From contig CAJOIP010000007.1 of assembly GCA_905234785.1 (NCBI GenBank), positions 1 through 53,536 of the forward strand: DNA of 53,536 nucleotides. The letters run 5' to 3'. A program made the translations under genes and the position numbers. Positions 1 through 50,263 of this stretch are shown here, piece by piece; positions within the stretch are counted from its first letter, which is position 1; each line of letters starts with the position of its first letter. Origin of the DNA: an uncultured Eggerthellaceae bacterium. GTDB lineage: Bacteria > Actinomycetota > Coriobacteriia > Coriobacteriales > Eggerthellaceae. The notes beneath the pieces were generated by a model. The model searched no databases. It worked only from the letters and a program-made list of their open reading frames with translations, and was not told the DNA's origin.

Positions 1-438
1 GACGACGTCGATGGAGTTGTCCTCGATGCCGATCTCGTCGAGCGCCTCGATGAAGCCCTTCTTGAACTCGACGTTGTCATAGCCCCACTTCTCGGCCATT
101 TCGGCATGGAACTTCTCGGCGATGCCGAGCTGGTCCTCGTTCATGTCGACGCCGATGACCTTGCCGGTCGGACCGACGAGCTTGGAGGCCAGGTACACGT
201 CGCGGCCGGTGCCGCAACCCAGGTCGAGCACCGTGCAACCCTCGAGCGCCGGGGGCAAGGGGCTTCCGCAGCCGTAGAAGCGCGAAGTCACGTCCTCGGG
301 GATGTCCCCCAGGATGTCCTGGATGTAAGCCGGCATGCACTCGGGGCCGCATGCGCACGTGTTCGTGGCCATCTCGCCATGCTCTTTCATGCTGACGTTG
401 CTGTAGTACTCTTTGATTTCCTCACGGGTAACTGCCAT
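1..438 (-). CDS. ArsM-like SAM-dependent methyltransferase, C-terminus off the window
   Basis: Only the first 146 residues are inside the window. The fold is a class I SAM methyltransferase of the arsenite methyltransferase type: motif I DLGCGTG lies at residues 72-78, FYGCGSP puts a Cys at 57, and an N-terminal cluster has Cys 28, 30 and 34. These match places where ArsM proteins carry As(III)-binding cysteines. The ATG at 438 has an AAAGGAAC ribosome binding site, which fixes the start. It is the first of three ArsM-type domains in the left 5 kb and most resembles the methyltransferase half of the fusion gene at 3045-5231. Whether it too continues into a radical SAM domain cannot be seen. 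Function in arsenic methylation is inferred from the family. Confidence 0.85.
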   Translation of the reverse strand, partial: MAVTREEIKEYYSNVSMKEHGEMATNTCACGPECMPAYIQDILGDIPEDVTSRFYGCGSPLPPALEGCTVLDLGCGTGRDVYLASKLVGPTGKVIGVDMNEDQLGIAEKFHAEMAEKWGYDNVEFKKGFIEALDEIGIEDNSIDVV

Positions 439-556
439 TGTTCGTTCCTTTCAGTCTTCCTTGTCGAAGGTCCCCAGATAAACGAACGCGCCCACTTCGG
501 GGGCGCACAATGCTTGCGCCCAGAACGGGCGGCAAGGCAGCTATCGATTCCACGTC

Positions 557-577
557 ACATATCCTAGCAGATTACTG
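557..577 (-). promoter_or_regulatory. Putative extended -10 promoter / direct-repeat operator upstream of the partial arsM-like gene
   Basis: On the minus strand the site reads as an extended -10 (TGCTAGGAT). The same extended -10 occurs at the suf promoter near 34902. A related copy with TAGGATATGT lies at 608-628, matching 16 of 21 bases, so the pair could also be a direct-repeat operator. No good -35 is visible. Confidence 0.35.
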
Positions 578-686
578 GGTTTTTACTGGACATGGCCTAC
601 CATTCATACATATCCTACATAATTGCTGGGATTTGCATGAGACGGGGCGGGTTCCCGGCTTGCGCTCCCCGAGCGGAGCGCAAGCC

Positions 687-714
687 AAAGGCCCCGCCAT
701 CAAGCGGGGCCTTT
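687..714 (-). terminator. Hairpin terminator downstream of the Cys-less ArsM paralogue
   Basis: Perfect 11-bp stem (AAAGGCCCCGC / GCGGGGCCTTT) with a 6-base loop, 38 bases past the stop at 753. The tail is only three U on either strand, so it could act in both directions. A second perfect 11-bp hairpin with GCTTGCGCTCC arms lies next to it at 658-685. Confidence 0.6.
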
Positions 715-752
715 CCGAGTTTCCAACCTTGAGAGGCTTGAGAGGCGCTGGG

Positions 753-1688
753 CTATTCCCAAACTTCCTCGGCCGAATACGGGATGTTGCCACAGCCGGG
801 ATACGGGCCGCCGTGCTTCTCGTTTTCGCCGCGCTCGCCGCCGGTGATCTCGAAGTACTTGCCCACGCGGGTATTCTCGACCATGGCGCAGGAGTTGCCG
901 CACACGGACAGCGGCTCACCCTTCATGAAGCGATGATGGTCGTCGAGGTCGTAGTAATCCGGCGCACCCTCGATGCCGCCCTGATACGTCGCGTACTGAT
1001 AGTACTGCTCGCAGAGGTCCTCCAGGATTCCGGGGATCTTGTAGCAGCGCATCGTGCGCACGAAGTACGTCCAGTCGGCGACCTCGGCCGGCTGCTCCTT
1101 CTTGTAAATCGCCGTGCACATGCAGCGGATGGTCGGCCAGCCGGCCAGCGCGCAGAAGCGACGGTAATCCTCGATGTACAGGGCGCCGGCCAAGCCGAGC
1201 TCCTTCATCTTGTCGGTCTTCACGGCTTCGGGCGTGCGGCGGTCGACGAAGATGTCGCTCATGTAGAACTCGCCGCCGAACTTCAGGACGCGGTAGATGG
1301 TGTTCAGCTGCGTCTGCGTATCCGGAGCGGTGCTGACCGCGCCGTTGGCGATGACCAGGTCGATGGAATCGGACTTGATGCCCAGGCCGTTCAGCGTCAT
1401 GGGGCAGCCATGCACGATCTCGACGTTGTTCGCGCCGAGCTCTTCCTTGATCTCGTTGGCCTTCGCGACGAGGTCCTCATGATGCTCGACGCCGATGACG
1501 CGGCCGGTGGGACCGACGAGCTTGCCGGCGACGAACGCGTCGCGGCCGGCGCCGCATTCAAGCACGAGCACCGTGCAACCGTCCATCGCCAGAGGGAACG
1601 GATTGCCCCAATCAGGAGCGCCCTCGGAGGCCGCAGCGGGAATCTCGGCCAGAATGGAATCGATTGCAGCTTTCTGAATATCTGCCAT
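753..1688 (-). CDS. Degenerate ArsM-family methyltransferase lacking the arsenic-binding cysteines
   Basis: A 311-residue protein that aligns by eye with the ArsM domains at 1-438 and 3045-5231. It keeps the SAM fold (VLECGAGRD in place of DLGCGTGRD, then GPTGRVIGVE) and the C-terminal ArsM signature region (QYATYQGG, DLDDHHRFMKGEP, GNSCAMVE). The catalytic cysteines are gone: SNCV is replaced by ANGA, the ECLGGA motif by ELGLAGA, and the N-terminal Cys/FYGCG region is shortened and replaced. Other cysteines near the C-terminus remain. It is therefore either a non-catalytic partner of a neighbouring ArsM or a methyltransferase for another substrate. The ATG at 1688 follows GAGAGG. The reading frame is intact, so this is not a simple pseudogene. 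Confidence 0.8.
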   Translation of the reverse strand: MADIQKAAIDSILAEIPAAASEGAPDWGNPFPLAMDGCTVLVLECGAGRDAFVAGKLVGPTGRVIGVEHHEDLVAKANEIKEELGANNVEIVHGCPMTLNGLGIKSDSIDLVIANGAVSTAPDTQTQLNTIYRVLKFGGEFYMSDIFVDRRTPEAVKTDKMKELGLAGALYIEDYRRFCALAGWPTIRCMCTAIYKKEQPAEVADWTYFVRTMRCYKIPGILEDLCEQYYQYATYQGGIEGAPDYYDLDDHHRFMKGEPLSVCGNSCAMVENTRVGKYFEITGGERGENEKHGGPYPGCGNIPYSAEEVWE

Positions 1689-1824
1689 AAGAAGAATCCT
1701 CTCTTGCGCCTGGCAGTGCGCAAAAGCGGGAACGTGCGGGTGTGGAATCGACAGCTCCCTTGCCAGGCGTTCGCTTTTCAGGTTTCAAAGGTTCATGCAG
1801 TCGGCCACCTGCATGCAGTGCAGA

Positions 1825-1853
1825 AGCCCAAAGGGGAGCACCCCCTTTGGGCT
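1825..1853 (-). terminator. Terminator of the aquaglyceroporin gene
   Basis: Perfect 12-bp stem (AGCCCAAAGGGG / CCCCTTTGGGCT) with a 5-base loop, 11 bases past the stop of the gene ending at 1864. The U-tract is weak. A similar shorter hairpin stands near 14133, between arsM and the phosphatidyltransferase gene. Confidence 0.6.
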
Positions 1854-1863
1854 GTTTCGATCG

Positions 1864-2670
1864 TTAGTTGGACGGAGCCTCGTTGGCCTTGTTGGCATGC
1901 AGCGGCTCGAGCCAGAACATCCAGAGCAGGGCACCCACGATGCCGCCCACGATGGGGGCGATGACGTAGACGACCCACACGCCCGGCGCGAAGACGACGG
2001 ACGGATCGGCGCCCATGACCAGCGACATGATGCGCGGCATGATGTCGCGGGCGGGGTTGAAGCCGGCGTCGGTCATCGGGCCGACGGTGCAGATGCCCAT
2101 GGTGATGGTCAAGCCGATGAACAGCGGGAAGATAACGTCGCCGGGCTTGCCCACGTTGGCATCCTCAGTCATCGAGAAGATGATGATCAGCAGGATGCAC
2201 AGGAAGATGCCCTCGCCGAGGGCGCCCTGCAGCACGTCGATGACCAGATGTCCGTTGTTCGGATACGGCTCGGCCCAGACGGTGAGGGCGGCGGCGTAGG
2301 TCGCCTGGTCGCCCAGGTCGGGCATGCCGGCCTGCAGCGCGGCCACCGTGGGGCCGAAGTACAGCCACAGGATGAAGGCCGCCACGAACGCGCCGAGGCA
2401 CTGGCCGATGAGGTAGATTGGCAGCTCCTTCCACGGCAGGCGCTTGGCGATGCACATGGCGATGGAGACGGCCGGGTTGAAGTGCGCGCACGACAGGTTG
2501 CGCGTTGCGTAGATGGCGATGGCGATGGTAACGCCCCACACCATGCCTACTTGGAAGGGACCCGTGTGGGCCCCGGCGAGAACGGCGGTTGCCACAGCAC
2601 CGATGCCAAAGAAACACATCAGGAAGGTGCCGAGGAACTCGCCGCTGAACGCCCTAGCTGGACTATTCAT
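1864..2670 (-). CDS. MIP-family aquaglyceroporin (glycerol/arsenite channel)
   Basis: Major intrinsic protein of 268 residues with six hydrophobic segments and both half-helix motifs: HFNPAVS in the first half and GFNPARD in the second. The Asp after NPAR is typical of glycerol facilitators rather than water-only aquaporins. Such channels also pass undissociated arsenite, and some bacteria encode one in ars operons (AqpS). No glycerol kinase or dehydrogenase is nearby, and methyltransferases of the ArsM type lie on both sides, so metalloid transport is the contextual inference. The ATG at 2670 is preceded by AAAGGAAC; an in-frame start at 2730 lacks such a site. It has its own promoter, a roughly 250-base leader and a hairpin inside that leader. 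Confidence 0.9.
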   Translation of the reverse strand: MNSPARAFSGEFLGTFLMCFFGIGAVATAVLAGAHTGPFQVGMVWGVTIAIAIYATRNLSCAHFNPAVSIAMCIAKRLPWKELPIYLIGQCLGAFVAAFILWLYFGPTVAALQAGMPDLGDQATYAAALTVWAEPYPNNGHLVIDVLQGALGEGIFLCILLIIIFSMTEDANVGKPGDVIFPLFIGLTITMGICTVGPMTDAGFNPARDIMPRIMSLVMGADPSVVFAPGVWVVYVIAPIVGGIVGALLWMFWLEPLHANKANEAPSN

Positions 2671-2921
2671 GCTTTTCTTGTTCCTTTCGCTCAAGTGACG
2701 ATTTGGGTTCACAAGGCGCAGAACAAGCAAGCAGCGGTATAATTACCACTGCTCTCACCTAGAGCACGTCGGCGGATCCGCTCATTCGACGGTCCTCGCA
2801 TGCTGGCCGGCATGCGTGTCACCGGAGCTGGTCCGCTGACATCTTCTCCGCCGCATGAGCGCGGGCAAACGCACCCGCACCGCGCCTTGCTAACCTAGCA
2901 AATTACTTCGTGTAATGTGCC
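2671..2921 (-). promoter_or_regulatory. Long structured leader RNA of the aquaglyceroporin gene (candidate riboswitch/attenuator)
   Basis: The transcript predicted from the promoter at 2928-2955 begins near 2921 and runs about 250 bases before the start codon. It contains many small hairpins in series: ATTAC/GTAAT, TTGCTA/TAGCAA, GCGGG/CCCGC, GTCA/TGAC, GCATGC/GCATGC and GCTCT/AGAGC. Two longer pairings cross each other (2847-2852 with 2771-2776, and 2855-2860 with 2780-2785), so they are alternatives or a pseudoknot. An intrinsic terminator-like hairpin follows at 2721-2752. I do not recognise any known riboswitch core. The layout promoter, structured leader, terminator, gene is that of a transcription-attenuating riboswitch. 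Confidence 0.5.
2721..2752 (-). terminator. Terminator-like hairpin within the aquaglyceroporin leader
   Basis: On the minus strand a 9-bp stem (GCAGTGGTA / TACCGCTGC, one G-U) with loop ATTA is followed by the T-rich TTGCTTGTTC. It lies 51 bases before the start codon. The adjacent hairpin GCTCT-AGGTG-AGAGC (2751-2765) shares its last two bases with this stem, so the two compete slightly. It might instead end transcripts arriving from the fusion gene at 3045. Confidence 0.55.
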
Positions 2922-2927
2922 AATATC

Positions 2928-2955
2928 ATTTTATAAGGATACTAGACGTTGTCAA
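2928..2955 (-). promoter_or_regulatory. Sigma-70-type promoter for the aquaglyceroporin leader
   Basis: Minus strand TTGACA (2950-2955), 16-base spacer, TAAAAT (2928-2933). The -35 is a perfect match. It sits in an AT-rich patch (2890-3010) between the fusion gene and the channel gene. Confidence 0.7.
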
Positions 2956-3044
2956 TTACTTTATTAGTTCTTATAGGCTATTGGCAATTGTAAGCCAGCT
3001 ATTACTTCAAGGGGAGACCAGCCAAAACAGGGCATCCTATTGCG

Positions 3045-5231
3045 CTACACGAGCGCGCCGCCGCATGAGCTGCCGAAACCGGCAGCGCAGCTGTAGCAGA
3101 GCGGGTTCGTGCGAACCTGGCGCGGCGGCAGCTGGCCCGCGAGCACATCGTCGATAGTCGCGTCGCGCGCCCCTTCCCCCTCGCCCACCTGAATGGGAAG
3201 GCCCAGCACGTGGTTCGGCTCGCAGTCGTACAGGCGGCCGTCGTAGTCGACGTTCACCATGTCGAGGCACATGAGCCGCGTGATGGCCATGGCGTTGAAG
3301 TTGTCGGCGAGCAGCGCCAGGTAATCGTCGAACATGCCCATGTCGAGCAAATCGGCGGCAAAGCGCCCGCACGCCCAGTTGTTGAACGCGAAGAGGCTGT
3401 CGAACTTCACGCCGAAATCGCGCTCGAGCACCTTGTGATACTGCGCCTCGATCATGTCTTGCGGCAGCGGCAGGAACGGACCCGCCACGTTGTACACGAG
3501 GTCGAGTTTGAGAAGTTTTCCCGCTTGACCGCTTCGCGGAGATCCTTCGACTCCGCGCTGCGCGCTTCGCTCAGGATGACAGGTTAAGGGAGCGTGCGCG
3601 CTTCGCTCAGGATGACAGGTTAAGGGAGCGTGCGCGCTCTGCTCGGGATGACAAGAACCCATGCCATAGCCTCGGGTATTTAGCTCGCGGATGCTGGCGA
3701 TGGCGCGCTCGAACACGCGCGAACCGCGCTGGCTAGCCGTGCCCTTCGGGTCGTAGAACGGAAGCGACGCCACGATGTGCGGGCCCACTTCGGCGAACAC
3801 GTCGAGGAAGCGCGCGTACTCGGGCTGCTGTTCCAGCGTCAGGTTCGTGCGCACGATGACGTCGCCGAGCTTGGCCGACTCGCGCAAGAACCACTCGAAG
3901 TCGGGATGCAGCTCGGGGCTGCCGCCCGTGATGTCCATGACCTCGAAGCCGCCGGCCGAAAACGCGTCGAGGCACTTCTGCAGCGTCTCGCGCGACATGG
4001 CCTCGGTGTTCTTGGGGCTGCATTCCAGATAGCAGTGGCGGCACGCCAGATTGCAGGCGTACGTGATGTTCACCTGCATGGTCGCCTGATGCTCGCGCGT
4101 CTGCAGCAGCGTCGGCTGGCCGACGCGCTCCTCGAACGTCAGGTAATCGGCCTGGTCGTAGGCATCCTGCAGCATCTTCAAGTCGACGGCGCGCTTACCG
4201 CGGCGCACCTCGAGCGCCTGCTGTGCGCGCTCGGCATTGAACGCGCCCCGATGAAGGCGCGGCTTCGACACCTCGAAGAACGCGCCGTAGCGCGACGCTT
4301 CCAGCATACGCGCCGTGTTGCCGCTAATGGCGCGGGGCTTGCCCTTCACGAAGCGCAAATTGCTGTCGAAATCGAAATAGCGCGGCATCTCGGGCATGCC
4401 GCCCAGATAGGTGGCGTGCTGGCCATAGTCTTCCTCGGTTTCCTCCAGCCCATCGCACTTGATGGCGCGAATGGTGCGGCTGCGGAAGCTCGTGAAGCCG
4501 ACGCGCGTCTCGATGGCAAGGTCGCCCACGTACATGGGGTCGTCGACCGTCCACACGAAATGCGGCCAGCCCGCGCGGCGCATGAGCTGGCGGAAGTCCT
4601 CAGCGTACGTGGCGCCGCCCAGGCACTCGCTGTGCAAGATGGGGTCGTCGCGCAGCTCTTCGGGCAGGCGGCGGCTGGCGTACACGTCGCTGAAGTACAG
4701 CTCGCCGCCAGGCTTCAGCACCCGGTACACCTCGCTCATGACCATGTCCTTGAACGGGGACAGGTTCACCACGCAGTTGGAAACCACGAGGTCGATCGAT
4801 TCGTCCTCGATTCCGCACCCGGCCAAGTCCTCGATGTAGCCTAGGCGGAATTCGACGTTGCTCTTTGCATGGCCGAAGCGCTCAGCCTGTTCCCGTTGGT
4901 AGCGCTTGGCCACTTCCAGCTGCTCGGGCGTCATGTCCACGCCGATGACGCGGCCGGTCTCGCCCACGAGTTTCGACAGCACGTACACGTCGCGCCCCGT
5001 GCCGCAGCCCAAATCGAGTACCGTGCAGCCTTCGAGCGCGGGCGGGATGGGCGAACCACAGCCGTAGAACCGCGCGATGATCTCGTCGGCGATGAGCGGC
5101 ATGACGTCGAGCACGTACTTCGGGGGCGGCACCGCCTCGCAATGCGGCGCATTCGTGCCCAGGTCATCCGACCCGGACAGCGTGCGTCCGTAGTACTCGC
5201 GCACCTCGTCATGTATCGTCGTCAGTTCCAT
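3045..5231 (-). CDS. ArsM-ArsS fusion: arsenite methyltransferase plus radical SAM/Cys-rich domain
   Basis: A 728-residue two-domain enzyme. Residues 1-325 are a complete ArsM: Cys 31 and 58, motif I DLGCGTG at 73-79, SNCVVNL (Cys 153) and SECLGGA (Cys 203), so all expected As-binding cysteines are present. Residues 380-728 are an ArsS-type radical SAM domain with CNLACRHC (Cys 393, 397, 400), the GG motif DITGGSPELHP, and a C-terminal Cys cluster CYSCAAGFGSSCGG. ArsM and ArsS are neighbours or fused in arsenosugar-type pathways, where ArsS is thought to add a SAM-derived 5-deoxyadenosyl group to methylated arsenic. Residues 526-568 are an in-frame repetitive insertion (see separate entry). 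The ATG at 5231 follows GGGAGGAG; the longer frame to 5333 runs into a fold-back element and was rejected. Confidence 0.88.
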   Translation of the reverse strand: MELTTIHDEVREYYGRTLSGSDDLGTNAPHCEAVPPPKYVLDVMPLIADEIIARFYGCGSPIPPALEGCTVLDLGCGTGRDVYVLSKLVGETGRVIGVDMTPEQLEVAKRYQREQAERFGHAKSNVEFRLGYIEDLAGCGIEDESIDLVVSNCVVNLSPFKDMVMSEVYRVLKPGGELYFSDVYASRRLPEELRDDPILHSECLGGATYAEDFRQLMRRAGWPHFVWTVDDPMYVGDLAIETRVGFTSFRSRTIRAIKCDGLEETEEDYGQHATYLGGMPEMPRYFDFDSNLRFVKGKPRAISGNTARMLEASRYGAFFEVSKPRLHRGAFNAERAQQALEVRRGKRAVDLKMLQDAYDQADYLTFEERVGQPTLLQTREHQATMQVNITYACNLACRHCYLECSPKNTEAMSRETLQKCLDAFSAGGFEVMDITGGSPELHPDFEWFLRESAKLGDVIVRTNLTLEQQPEYARFLDVFAEVGPHIVASLPFYDPKGTASQRGSRVFERAIASIRELNTRGYGMGSCHPEQSAHAPLTCHPERSAHAPLTCHPERSAQRGVEGSPRSGQAGKLLKLDLVYNVAGPFLPLPQDMIEAQYHKVLERDFGVKFDSLFAFNNWACGRFAADLLDMGMFDDYLALLADNFNAMAITRLMCLDMVNVDYDGRLYDCEPNHVLGLPIQVGEGEGARDATIDDVLAGQLPPRQVRTNPLCYSCAAGFGSSCGGALV
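3528..3655. repeat. REP-like repeat inserted in frame in the ArsS domain, with a 36-base tandem duplication
   Basis: This DNA matches the dispersed REP-like family also seen at 12028-12117, 47291-47335 and 50959-50994 (core with cttcgcggagatcc and ctcaggatgaca). It contains a tandem repeat of 36 bases: 3561-3596, 3597-3632 and a partial third copy to 3655. As 36 is a multiple of three, the frame stays open and encodes a 12-residue repeat, CHPERSAHAPLT, then CHPERSAQRGVEGSP. The stand-alone ArsS at 19839-20828 lacks it. Confidence 0.9.
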
Positions 5232-5279
5232 AACTCCTCCCATAGGGAAGATCGCCTGCAATAGCGAGCCATAATGTGT

Positions 5280-5406
5280 GCCGAATGACGTGCGTGTGAA
5301 GCGAATATCGTAGAAATCGTCTTCGAAATCCACTTTTCGCAGCGTAGCGAAGAAAAGTTAGTTCGAGGCGATTTCCAGATTGAGCGGAACACGCACGTCA
5401 TTCGGC
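5280..5406. mobile_element. Fold-back (MITE-like) palindromic element, 127 bp
   Basis: Perfect 18-base inverted ends (5280-5297 and 5389-5406, GCCGAATGACGTGCGTGT outward). The interior is also nearly symmetric: gaaatcg and acttttcgc on the left recur as their complement on the right, so the whole element can fold into one long hairpin. Its right end supplies the last bases and stop codon of the CobW gene (5398). No clear target duplication is seen. It separates the ABC-CobW operon from the ArsM-ArsS fusion. Confidence 0.7.
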
Positions 5407-12027: not shown

Positions 12028-12117
12028 CTGTCATTCAGAGCGCAAGCGAGGAATCTCCGCGAAGCGCCTATCGAGAAACCGCTTCTCGGAGATCCTTCGC
12101 TTACGCTCAGGATGACG
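12028..12117. repeat. REP-like palindromic repeat copy
   Basis: Inverted-repeat element between convergent genes: tgtcattcagagcgcaagcg ... cgcttacgctcaggatgac, with an inner palindrome around gagaaaccgcttctc. Same family as the copies at 3528, 47291 and 50959. Being between two convergent stops it may end both transcripts. Confidence 0.8.
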
Positions 12118-15641: not shown

Positions 15642-15944
15642 GCGCCTGATTGCCTGTAGTTTGTTGCAGGCGGCCTTGCTTCTACCTCGGGTGCAAGAGT
15701 TCGAATCTCGAACATTGAGTGCACGAGATTGCGGGTCTTGCACCCGATTCTGGGTGTTTGCGGCATTTGGATCTAGCGTTTGCCCTGTTCGGCGATGTCG
15801 CTGCGCAAGCGCCCGGGTGCAAGAGTTCGAATCTCGAACATCGAGTGCTCGAGATTGCGGGTTCTGCACCCGGGCTCGGCGCAGATTGCGGGTCTTGCAC
15901 CCGGGCTCGGCGCAGATTGCGGGTTCTGCGCCTAGACGCGCCGC
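15642..15944. other. Intergenic region filled by palindromic repeats
   Basis: No coding signal. The stretch is mostly the repeat cluster at 15689-15935; the first 45 bases show nothing notable. Confidence 0.6.
15689..15935. repeat. Cluster of GGTGCAAGACCCGCAATCT palindromic repeats (cluster 1)
   Basis: Two hairpin units (15689-15744 and 15815-15871) begin GGGTGCAAGAGTTCGAATCT and end with the reverse complement of the consensus, so each can fold on itself. Two shorter direct copies follow to 15935 (ctcggcgcagattgcgggt). The same family forms cluster 2 at 49947-50190. TTCGAATC inside it resembles a tRNA T-arm but no tRNA can be folded. Confidence 0.8.
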
Positions 15945-19272: not shown

Positions 19273-19842
19273 TTGAAGCTTTTGGACACCCCGCCGTGCG
19301 ATCCGTTTTTCCTGGGTGAGCAGCCCGTTGTCGTCATCGAGATGTGGAATGGCCGCAAGATCCGCATTCAGCTTGACCCCACAGCAGCCCCCATCACGGT
19401 GGCGTATTTCCTCACGCTCGTGCAGGACGGTTTTTACGATTGCCTGAAATTCCACCGCGTCGTGCCGAACTTCATGATCCAGGGCGGCGACCCCTTGGGC
19501 ACGGGCGACGGCGAGACCGACTGCTACATCAAGGGCGAATTCGCCGAGAACGGCGTCGCCAACCCCCTGCACCACACGCGGGGAGCCATCTCGATGGCGC
19601 GGCAAGAAGGCTGCGACACCGCATCGTGCCAGTTCTTCATCATGCTGCGCGACAACTACGGGCTCGACGGCCATTACGCCGCATTCGGGCACGTCATCGA
19701 GGGGATGGAAGCCGTCGACCAGGTGGCGGGCTTCCCCGTCGACGCGAACAGCGCCCCCACGGTCCCCGTCATCATGCGCCGCGTGTACGTGGAAGCGCGA
19801 AGCGCGCTAACCTGGGCAGCCCGCTTTGACGCGTCAGCTTAG
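19273..19842 (+). CDS. Cyclophilin-type peptidyl-prolyl cis-trans isomerase
   Basis: 189 residues. It contains the cyclophilin core: PITVAYFLTLVQDGFYD, FHRVVPNFMIQGGDP, GAISMARQEGCDTASCQFFI and FGHVIEGMEAVD. It speeds proline isomerisation during folding; no signal peptide, so cytoplasmic. I chose the TTG at 19273 because AGGAG lies 7 bases upstream and no ATG or GTG is suitably placed. Its TAG overlaps the stop of the convergent ArsS gene by four bases (19839-19842). Confidence 0.9.
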   Translation: MKLLDTPPCDPFFLGEQPVVVIEMWNGRKIRIQLDPTAAPITVAYFLTLVQDGFYDCLKFHRVVPNFMIQGGDPLGTGDGETDCYIKGEFAENGVANPLHHTRGAISMARQEGCDTASCQFFIMLRDNYGLDGHYAAFGHVIEGMEAVDQVAGFPVDANSAPTVPVIMRRVYVEARSALTWAARFDASA

Positions 19843-20828
19843 GCGGTTTCGCCGCCGCAGCTGCTGCCGGCGCCGGCCGTGCAGCCGTAGCAATGGTTCG
19901 CGAACACGATGGGCCGCGCCGGCTGCTTCTCGCGGGCGAAGTCGAAGATGGTCTTTTCGCCGTCGATCTTCAGGCCCAGCGCCTGGTTGAAGTCGCAGTC
20001 GTACACGCTTCCTTCCCAGTCGACGCTGATCTGGTTGCGGCACATCATGCCCTCGGTCGTGGCCGGGTTGAACGCGTCGCGCAGGCGCACGAGGTATGTT
20101 TCCAGGTTGTCCTTGCGGTTCAGCGCTTCGGCGAACCGGCCGGACGGGTTGTTCGTGATGGCCACGAGGTTGCTGAAATGAACGCCGTGCATGGCGGTCA
20201 GCTTCGTGCGGTACTCGTTTTCGATGGCGGCCTGGGGCGGCGGGAACGTGGCGGAAGACGGGTTGAACACGAGCGTGATGGCGTGCGTGTCCCCATCGCC
20301 GTCATGGTCGCCGTAGCCCACGGCGTTCAGCATGCGCAAACCCTCGAGCGAGGCGTCGAACGCGCCATCGCCGCGCACCTTGTCGACGTTGCGCGCGCTG
20401 TAGAACGGCAGCGAGGCGAACAGCGCGGCGTCGATGTCGGCGTACAGCTGCGCGAAATGCGCGTACGCGGGGTCGGTCAGGATGCACAGGTTCGTGCGGC
20501 AGATGGGCTTCACGCCGCGTTTCTGCCACTCGTGCAGGAACCATTCCAGATCGGGGTGCATCTCGGGCGCGCCGCCCGTGATGTCGACCGACGTGAACCC
20601 GCCCTTCTCGTAGGCGTCGAGGCATGCCTGCATGGTCTTGCGGCTCATCATCTCGGTGCGGGTCGGGCTGCAGGCCAGGTGGCAATGGCGGCACGCCAGG
20701 TTGCACTTGTAGCCCACGTTCACCTGCAGCGTCGTCAGCGGGTCGTTCGTCAGCCGATGTTCCTCGGGCACCATCTCGATGAACGGCGGCACGCATTCCA
20801 TCGCCTCTTCAACAGCCAGTTCGGCCAT
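19839..20828 (-). CDS. arsS: Stand-alone ArsS: radical SAM/Cys-rich domain protein
   Basis: 329 residues, same family as the second half of the fusion at 3045-5231. The radical SAM cluster motif CNLACRHC gives Cys 42, 46 and 49, followed by HLACSPTRTE and DITGGAPEMHPDLEWF. The C-terminal Cys motif CYGCTAGAGSSCGG is intact. The protein probably modifies methylated arsenic with a SAM-derived radical, as proposed for ArsS in arsenosugar pathways. Where the fusion carries the repeat insertion this protein has only a short acidic loop (DHDGDGD). The AhpD-like protein upstream (21030-21368) is the usual partner of this family. Start ATG at 20828 follows GAGAGGG. Confidence 0.88.
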   Translation of the reverse strand: MAELAVEEAMECVPPFIEMVPEEHRLTNDPLTTLQVNVGYKCNLACRHCHLACSPTRTEMMSRKTMQACLDAYEKGGFTSVDITGGAPEMHPDLEWFLHEWQKRGVKPICRTNLCILTDPAYAHFAQLYADIDAALFASLPFYSARNVDKVRGDGAFDASLEGLRMLNAVGYGDHDGDGDTHAITLVFNPSSATFPPPQAAIENEYRTKLTAMHGVHFSNLVAITNNPSGRFAEALNRKDNLETYLVRLRDAFNPATTEGMMCRNQISVDWEGSVYDCDFNQALGLKIDGEKTIFDFAREKQPARPIVFANHCYGCTAGAGSSCGGETA

Positions 20829-36033: not shown

Positions 36034-36699
36034 TTAGCTGCGCTTGTCGATTTTGCGTGCGAGCCAGTCGCCCAGGGTCTGGAACACCTGCACGAGCACC
36101 ACGCACAGGATGACCGCCGCCAGCATGACGTCGCCCTGGAAGCGCTGGTAACCGTAGCGGATGGCGATGTCGCCCAAACCGCCGGCGCCGACCGTGCCGG
36201 CCATGGCGGAATACCCGAACAGGTTCACGAACGTGATGGCCGCACCGCGCACGAGCGAGGGCAGCGATTCTTTCAGCATGACCTTCACCACGATCTGGAA
36301 ATTGCTAGCACCGAAGCTGTGAGCAGCCTCGATAAGGCCCTTGTCCACTTCGGCGAGGCTCTGCTCGACGATGCGCGCGACGAAGGGCGCGGCGGCGACC
36401 GTCAGCGGCACGACGGCGCCCGGCACGCCGAGCGACGTGCCCACGACCAGGCGCGTGAACGGGATGATGGCCACGAGCAAGATGATGAACGGGATGGAGC
36501 GCCCGATGTTGATGATCCAGCCAAGCACGGTGTTCACCGCGCGGTTGGGGCGCAGGCCACCCGGCGCCGTGACGGCGAACCAAATGCCCAGCGGCAAGCC
36601 GATAACGTAGGCGAACAGGCACGACAGGATGGTCATGACGAGCGTGTCGACCGTGCCTTGGGCGAGCAGCGCGCCGTACTTGTCGAAGAACTCGGCCAT
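36034..36699 (-). CDS. metI: Methionine ABC transporter permease
   Basis: 221 residues with five to six membrane helices and the MetI pattern: QGTVDTLVMTILSCLFAYVIGLPLG-type start, RSIPFIILLVAIIP, and the EAA loop AHSFGASNFQIVVKVMLKESLP followed by GGLGDIAIRYGYQRF. It imports methionine with MetN and MetQ. The ATG at 36699 overlaps the metN TAA by one base. Confidence 0.94.
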   Translation of the reverse strand: MAEFFDKYGALLAQGTVDTLVMTILSCLFAYVIGLPLGIWFAVTAPGGLRPNRAVNTVLGWIINIGRSIPFIILLVAIIPFTRLVVGTSLGVPGAVVPLTVAAAPFVARIVEQSLAEVDKGLIEAAHSFGASNFQIVVKVMLKESLPSLVRGAAITFVNLFGYSAMAGTVGAGGLGDIAIRYGYQRFQGDVMLAAVILCVVLVQVFQTLGDWLARKIDKRS

Positions 36700-37505
36700 T
36701 ACGCGACCACCTCCTCGGAACAATCAATTTCCTCCGAGGAAAATGATTCGTCCGAATCGGGCGCCTTTTCGAAGCCCCAATCGAGCAGCTCGCGGGCGAC
36801 CTTGCTCTGGGGGTTGGCGAACAGCTCGGCGGTCTCGCCCACTTCCACGATGTGGCCGGCGTCGATGACGGCCGTGCGGTTGCAGATGCGCTGCGCCACG
36901 GCGAGCGAATGCGTGATGACGACCATCGTCACGCCCAGCTCCTCGTTGATGCGCGCCAGCAAGTCGAGCACCTGTACGGTCGTGCGCGAGTCGAGCGCGC
37001 TCGTGGCCTCGTCGCAGAGCATGTAGCGCGGACGGTTTGCGAGCGCGCGGGCGATGGCCACGCGCTGTTGCTGGCCGCCGGACAGCTCGCTGGGGTAGCG
37101 CGACGCCTTGTCGTCGAGGCTGACGAGGCGCAGCAGCTCGTGCGCGCGTTCAGCGTTCTGGGCCTTGGGCTCGCGGCGAACCTCAAGCGGGAACATGACG
37201 TTCTGCAGCACCGTGCGCTGCTGGAACAAGCTGAAGTTCTGGAAGATCATGCCGATGTTGGCCCTCAGTTCGCGCAGCTGGCGGCCTTCGTAGTTGGTGA
37301 TGTCGTCGCCGTCGATGACGATCTGGCCCTCGGTCGGCCGCTCGAGCAGGTTCAGCAAACGCACGAGCGTGGACTTGCCGGCGCCCGACTCGCCGATGAT
37401 GCCGAAGATGTCGCCATCGTCGATTTTCAGGTTGATGTGGTCGAGGGCGCGGTGATCGCCATCGCTGGCGTGGTACACCTTCCCCACGTCTTTCAGTTCA
37501 ATCAT
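36699..37505 (-). CDS. metN: Methionine ABC transporter ATP-binding protein
   Basis: 268 residues: Walker [11 protein letters not shown]-loop [14 protein letters not shown], signature [15 protein letters not shown], Walker [12 protein letters not shown], switch His ITHSLAVAQ. The MetN-type start [11 protein letters not shown] and D-loop fit. It is shorter than E. coli MetN and lacks most of the C-terminal NIL/ACT-type methionine-sensing domain, so feedback inhibition by methionine may be absent. Confidence 0.94.
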
Positions 37506-47290: not shown

Positions 47291-47335
47291 TCCTCGCGCT
47301 TCGCGGAGATCCCTCGCTTACGCTCGGGATGACAC
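47291..47335. repeat. REP-like repeat copy
   Basis: Core cgcgcttcgcggagatccct and cttacgctcgggatgacac, matching copies at 3528, 12028 and 50959. It lies between ybaB and recR and leads into the 21-base tandem array. Confidence 0.8.
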
Positions 47336-47408
47336 AGGGGGAAACCGGGATGACACAGGGGGAAACCGGGCTGACACGGGGGGAAACCGGGATGACATGG
47401 GGAAAAGC
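47326..47408. repeat. Tandem array of a 21-base unit
   Basis: About four copies of gggatgacacagggggaaac(c): 47326-47346, 47347-47367, 47368-47388 and a decayed copy from 47389. The array seems to have grown from the end of the REP-like element, as did the 36-base array at 3561. Confidence 0.85.
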
Positions 47409-47464
47409 TGGCATGACAGCGAAAGCGGCTAGGGCAGGACGAGAGTTGCAGGGTATCTGGCTCA

Positions 47465-49854: not shown

Positions 49855-50263
49855 ATGCAAGCTCTCTTCTGATTCAAGCCAAATGGTGCTTCAAGTTCTT
49901 GATTGTATATCTTACCGAACCCGCGCCCAAGCGAAACTGGGGGCGTAGGTGCAGAACCCGCAATCTGGGGCACTTCGGGTGCAAGACCCGCAATCTGAAA
50001 CAACTTCGGGTGCAGAACCCGCAATCTCGTGCATCGAATGTTCGAAATTGCGAGTCTTGAACCTGACCATTTTGGTGTTATTTATTGCGACCAGGGCAAA
50101 CAATCTTGCAAAGAGCGCAACTTACCCGTTTTCGGGTGCAAAACCCGCAATCTGGAACATTCGTTGCTCGAGATTCAGGGTTTTGCACCTAGGCATTCCC
50201 TAAACCGCCAGATCTATGCCCAAGCGGAAGAACACGGCCCGATTTGCCGGGCGGGCAAGCATC
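49855..50263. other. Intergenic region filled by palindromic repeats (cluster 2)
   Basis: 409 bases. Besides the repeat cluster at 49947-50190, it contains the dnaX promoter region (49860-49940) and a short stretch beside the DedA stop. No gene or tRNA is supported. Confidence 0.6.
49947..50190. repeat. Cluster of GGTGCAAGACCCGCAATCT palindromic repeats (cluster 2)
   Basis: Three direct copies of GGTGCA(G/A)(A)ACCCGCAATCT in 49947-50025, then inverted partners (gattcagggttttgcacct near 50170) and another copy at 50137. The orientation is mixed, so several hairpins can form. Same family as cluster 1 at 15689-15935. Confidence 0.8.

Follow-up and report, generated by a model that had tools for sequence, protein, structure and literature searches.

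A TGTC-tagged REP-like repeat inserted in frame in an ArsS loop of an Eggerthellaceae bacterium, and other palindromes in the same loop positions of sister species

Intragenic REPs (GTAG- or CGTC-tagged palindromes) are small, tagged, dispersed hairpins, which are mostly intergenic, form inverted dimers, and in some cases lie in frame in genes (Di Nocera et al., 2013, PMC3733652). Clusters of them encode 43-82 aa in Thauera and R. conorii, and the REPs that lie at roughly one position of recB in two Xanthomonas species are not the same; REPs of the CGTC type have no dedicated transposase, and the main text of that paper does not contain the word Actinobacteria (PMC3733652). Rickettsia palindromic elements (RPEs; Ogata et al., 2000, 2002) are in-frame palindromes in unrelated conserved proteins, according to two reviews (PMC10969869, PMC3767692), which also note a frequent ATGAC motif in RPE-4, RPE-6 and RPE-7, and discuss hotspots struck by different RPE groups. 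The repeat described here, which has multiplied in one species of Eggerthellaceae, resembles both systems in part.

In the window (the whole stretch of 53,536 nucleotides that was analysed), a gene on the minus strand at 3045-5231 encodes an ArsM-ArsS fusion protein, with a methyltransferase, a radical SAM and a DUF3641 domain (Methyltransf_31, Radical_SAM, DUF3641 and TIGR04167), 728 aa long from the start used in the analysis; the open frame itself begins at 5333. It shares Radical_SAM and DUF3641 with the ArsS proteins of TIGR04167 (arsenosugar biosynthesis radical SAM (seleno)protein), here fused to ArsM, and scores above the curated cut-off of that family (303.8 bits vs 300); in contrast to them it is interrupted by a 48-aa loop coded by repeat DNA, which breaks the TIGR04167 match into two stretches. 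The radical SAM motif CxxxCxxC is present as CNLACRHC, and the C-terminal cysteines C318, C333, C375, C378 and C386 are invariant across the ArsS orthologue alignment. Several ArsM-like methyltransferases and an aquaporin-like gene surround the fusion gene (window 1-5333), and a standalone ArsS paralogue lies separately at 19839-20828. The source genome (G000; 2.26 Mb, 83 contigs, 96.9% complete) appears to be a MAG; its relatives are mainly gut and rumen MAGs, and the comparison set, with one genome per species, holds 14 congeners.

The whole inserted segment (3513-3656, minus strand; 144 nt) is delimited by the orthologue alignment and stands where congeners have Gly-Asp. It encodes SCHPEQSAHAPLTCHPERSAHAPLTCHPERSAQRGVEGSPRSGQAGKL (48 aa with three cysteines) and replaces GD, for a net gain of 46 aa, somewhat more than the approximately 43 residues given in the earlier note, which had correctly recognised the insertion itself. 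All 21 aligned orthologues have a short ArsS loop between GYG and LDLVYN (GGD in most congeners), and so, as the same note had observed, does the insert-free paralogue (GYGDHDGDGDTHAITLVFN), which excludes a segment native to all ArsS proteins. The repeat proper (3530-3653) is a TGTC-tagged REP-like hairpin, in which a terminal unit of 52 nt follows two units of 36 nt, all on the minus strand. The first 36-nt unit (CHPEQSAHAPLT, 3618-3653) is diverged and is followed by the second (CHPERSAHAPLT, 3582-3617), both delimited by tandem-repeat search; the terminal unit (CHPERSAQRGVEGSPRS, 3530-3581) contains the conserved hairpin of the family, TGTC-ATCCT...AGGAT-CTC, with the tail CGCGAAGCG. Tandem Repeats Finder and a repeat search describe the 36-nt array as 2.6 copies with 94% matches at 3559-3653. 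In the alignment, a further 17 nt (GTCAAGCGGGAAAACTT, 3513-3529, minus strand) separate the repeat from the conserved LKLDL strand. This copy has no inverted second arm, as many intergenic copies do, and its predicted RNA folding is no better than that of shuffles (z -0.48).

The core motif occurs seven times in the window, against 0.44 occurrences expected from shuffles, and the genome has 62 such sites when up to one mismatch is allowed (reversed control pattern, 0) or 105 with up to two (reversed control, 3). At up to one mismatch, 13 of the 14 congeners have zero or one core site; the exception is G001, which has six but measures 4.5 Mb and is 8% contaminated. The short form of the repeat is a 27-32-nt arm, TGTC-ATCCC-GA-GC-loop-GC-GA-GGGAT-CTC; the long form, mostly a 43-47-nt arm, combines an outer stem of 5 bp with a separate inner hairpin. 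Compensatory base changes occur in both forms, with covariation of 0.203 in the short form (shuffled mean 0.114) and 0.227 in the long form (shuffled mean 0.050), values reached by none of 500 shuffles in either case. The family is dispersed, hairpin-conserving, lineage-specific and mostly intergenic, and its ArsS copy is in frame in a protein that is otherwise conserved. Many copies are inverted pairs of two facing arms, or have tandem arrays upstream. Within the window, core-motif search finds an inverted pair of arms at 12029-12117, and repeat search, at 47306-47418, a single arm that runs into a degenerate tandem array of 21-nt units.

In the intergenic arrays of this genome, the period usually falls within 33-40 and is most often 36. 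The 36-nt period of the ArsS copy does keep the frame, as had been pointed out, but since the same period is the commonest between genes, it is no evidence of selection for frame. In the intergenic arrays upstream of a terminal unit (for example L040, L032 and L041), the spacer is uniform inside an array and differs among arrays, a pattern suggestive of duplication in place. No Rfam family covers the repeat, the sole match being the SRP RNA, and searches with the DNA core and the peptides, in a literature mostly without subscription papers, returned no paper on this repeat, nor on such insertions in Eggerthellaceae. A separate family of 31-nt tandem and inverted repeats (GGTGCAGAACCCGCAATCT...) occupies 15687-15929 and 49948-50189 of the window.

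Compared with CGTC REPs, the collected arms start with TGTC, an allowed variant of the tag, although the search pattern itself required TGTCAT, so that arms without a TGTC start would be missed. The stem of CGTC REPs has 8-9 bp and starts with A-T pairs, with a loop of 4-5; the short arms here, with ATCCC/GGGAT, two G-A mismatches, GC/GC and a 4-nt loop, come close to the 9-bp version, and the long arms have the 5-bp outer stem and the inner hairpin. The tail of CGTC REPs is mostly CCA (3 nt, unpaired), whereas nearly all arms collected here end in CTC; the repeat is therefore labelled REP-like and placed outside the CGTC super-family. Like CGTC REPs, it forms inverted dimers, is mostly intergenic, and has no dedicated transposase, no Y1_Tnp gene being found in this genome; unlike intragenic REPs, it has been amplified mostly as the longer hairpin with an inner stem, and in tandem arrays, in an actinomycete host. 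Mobilisation by a RAYT, as in REPs of the GTAG type, needs a Y1_Tnp gene, and none is found in this 96.9% complete genome, whereas 12 of the 14 congeners have one; the genome with by far the most copies is thus one in which no Y1_Tnp gene was found. The sole GIY-YIG match, considered as a mobiliser candidate, lies in a 700-aa frame that is probably UvrC and was set aside, so that neither the Y1_Tnp nor the GIY-YIG search of the genome yields a dedicated transposase. With RPEs, the repeat shares in-frame insertion in conserved proteins, of which there are six here, with empty sites in congeners; it also has the ATGAC motif of RPE-4, RPE-6 and RPE-7 at its ends, as ATGACA, while RPEs differ in their size of approximately 100-150 bp, their phylum, and in that nearly half of them lie inside genes, against approximately 7% of clusters here.

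The survey of the genome, scored with a strand-aware codon score, comprises 81 element clusters, at least one of which is a chance match. The majority are intergenic, often less than 100 nt past a stop codon; in six cases, the repeat is read in frame as part of a conserved protein. Besides the one in the ArsS domain, such copies lie in the N-terminal domain of MurD, within HypF_C_2 of HypF, between Fer2_BFD and Pyr_redox_2 in a GlpA-like oxidoreductase, between the two ABC domains of an ABC-F ATPase and, with three units, between the membrane and ATPase domains of an ABC exporter. Two further clusters extend C-terminal tails, one of a TatB-like protein and one of the gene preceding galactokinase, both named from their sequence; in the latter, a four-unit array (G000:C12:20313-20461) lengthens the C-terminus (CHPERSAERSPLRHPERSAERSPLR...). 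A 717-aa in-frame candidate at C17:113383 was dropped as probably intergenic. No gene-splitting copy is found among the 81 clusters by the codon score, which is simple, and by a search that favoured open frames; likewise, that all six internal insertions keep the frame is partly ascertainment, because the search targeted open spanning frames. Gene-internal clusters (6 of 79) are far below chance placement if a coding density of approximately 85% is assumed, which indicates that coding insertions are strongly depleted. All six host proteins have orthologues in congeners without this element; within the set of genomes compared, all the insertions are therefore recent and confined to this lineage. 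The view of the earlier note, that a dispersed and mainly intergenic REP-like repeat sits in frame between GYG and LDLVYN, is thus borne out by the genomic cores and the empty orthologues.

Unexpectedly, three of the six loops (those of ArsS, HypF and the ABC exporter) carry different palindromes, likewise in frame, in sister species. In the nearest relative (G004), the same ArsS loop holds a perfect 27-nt palindrome (AATCAATTTCCTCGGAGGAAATTGATT; L002), which encodes the cysteine-free peptide SISSEEIDS, the same HypF loop a 73-nt palindrome (L117), and the exporter linker a long inverted repeat (L164); other long inverted repeats occupy the exporter linker in G012 (L166) and G002 (L148). The three G004 elements (27 nt, 73 nt and that of the exporter) belong to dispersed families, with copies in G004, in G000, or in both. 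Of the G002 exporter element, the central part recurs at dispersed sites in each of the four genomes tested, and for the G012 element the searches give just a few partial matches, which are weaker. The 27-nt family also has a member in the window (36722-36748, minus strand), unrelated to the TGTC repeat, which a MetN-like ATPase gene (36699-37505) reads in frame in its C-terminal tail. In the exporter linker of G000 (G000:C32:1567-1772), the TGTC element adjoins the left arm of an older, G004-type inverted repeat (match at C32:1739-1772), and the survival of this arm shows the insertion to be nested. The second length-variable loop of ArsS (residue 682) holds no palindrome. Precedents for palindromes of different kinds in the same loop are the recB REPs of the two Xanthomonas species and the discussion of Rickettsia hotspots. 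The ArsS loop is very probably a place where palindromic repeats land time and again, and not a domesticated module.

Two internal positions vary most in length among the orthologues, and the insertion site is one of them. An AF2 model of the protein (mean pLDDT 66.5, moderate, from 13 sequences) matches radical SAM enzymes in the PDB and places the insert, at pLDDT 26-30, between a helix (169-182) and a strand (239-245); the insert is predicted to be disordered. In radical SAM barrels, helix-to-strand loops sit on the face opposite the active site. The site is read as an α4-β5 loop of the barrel, probably away from the active-site face.

The best account of these observations is, very probably, the neutral persistence of an in-frame REP-like insertion at a permissive loop, as with RPEs and intragenic REPs; the repeat looks like selfish DNA that is tolerated where it lengthens proteins, and not like a new functional part. 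The TGTC-tagged hairpin multiplied in this one species and inserted into arsM-arsS, arriving presumably by short-repeat mobilisation, either already arrayed or to be tandemly duplicated afterwards. As read from sequence, the core hairpin is open in four of its six frames, which makes the survival of coding copies likelier; together with a length that is a multiple of three and the permissive α4-β5 loop, this would explain why the ArsS insert persists, adding disordered residues with little effect, while insertions at other gene positions would presumably have been purged by selection.

It is improbable that the gene is instead dispensable and on its way to becoming a pseudogene, with the insert as an early lesion. 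The genome could offer substitutes, in the standalone ArsS paralogue and in further ArsM-like genes, but the fusion frame is open over 728 aa, with the invariant cysteines and the radical SAM motif retained. Moreover, dN/dS against the nearest relative is 0.10 for the gene outside the insert, and within the ArsS half 0.14 for the radical SAM part before the insert and 0.10 after it, though the insertion may be too young for decay to show; the lineage-specific ratios of replacement to silent changes (11/18 in this lineage, 16/37 in the sister) give no significant excess of replacements (Fisher p = 0.62).

Still less likely is that the insert has been domesticated, i.e. kept because its Cys-His repeats bind arsenic or another metal, or alter the activity of the enzyme. 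What speaks for this is the presence of three evenly spaced Cys-His pairs in a metalloid-handling enzyme, and the insert does add three cysteines to ArsS, as the earlier note had stated. These cysteines, however, follow from the reading frame of the repeat (TGT CAT = CH): CHPERS-type peptides occur in four hosts (ArsS, MurD, the GlpA-like protein and the ABC exporter), while the HypF and ABC-F copies are read in a cysteine-free frame. The same element occurs in five unrelated proteins, the loop is length-variable, its structure prediction, a check that the earlier note had proposed, suggests disorder, and in the nearest relative the unrelated peptide SISSEEIDS takes its place without cysteines. 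No evidence of function was found, and neither the term domesticated nor a functional reading of the cysteines is upheld. That a short-read assembly misplaced repeat reads into the gene can be dismissed almost entirely, in spite of the repetitive family and a fragmented genome that is probably a MAG, because the five other in-gene copies likewise keep long reading frames; in addition, the element has about the length of a typical read between unique flanks, and its array spacer CACGCTCCCTTAACC is absent from every other element compared.

Neutral persistence, as favoured here, has natural alleles that bear on it in the other palindromes that sister species carry in the same loops. With its closely related empty sites, the repeat offers a clean case of repeat DNA lengthening conserved proteins, in an actinomycete of the gut and beyond the groups for which this had been described. 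Cys-rich repeat peptides in databases, such as those of the CHPERS type, can be translated REP-like DNA and are not to be taken as metal-binding motifs. It is quite conceivable, if somewhat short of probable, that in this genus unrelated dispersed palindromes, inserting in frame and in succession, turn over the length-variable loops of conserved proteins, with different families in the same loop of different species and, in the ABC exporter linker, one element nested in what is left of another. If this is true, the sequence evolution of loops and linkers in this genus would be driven largely by repeat DNA.
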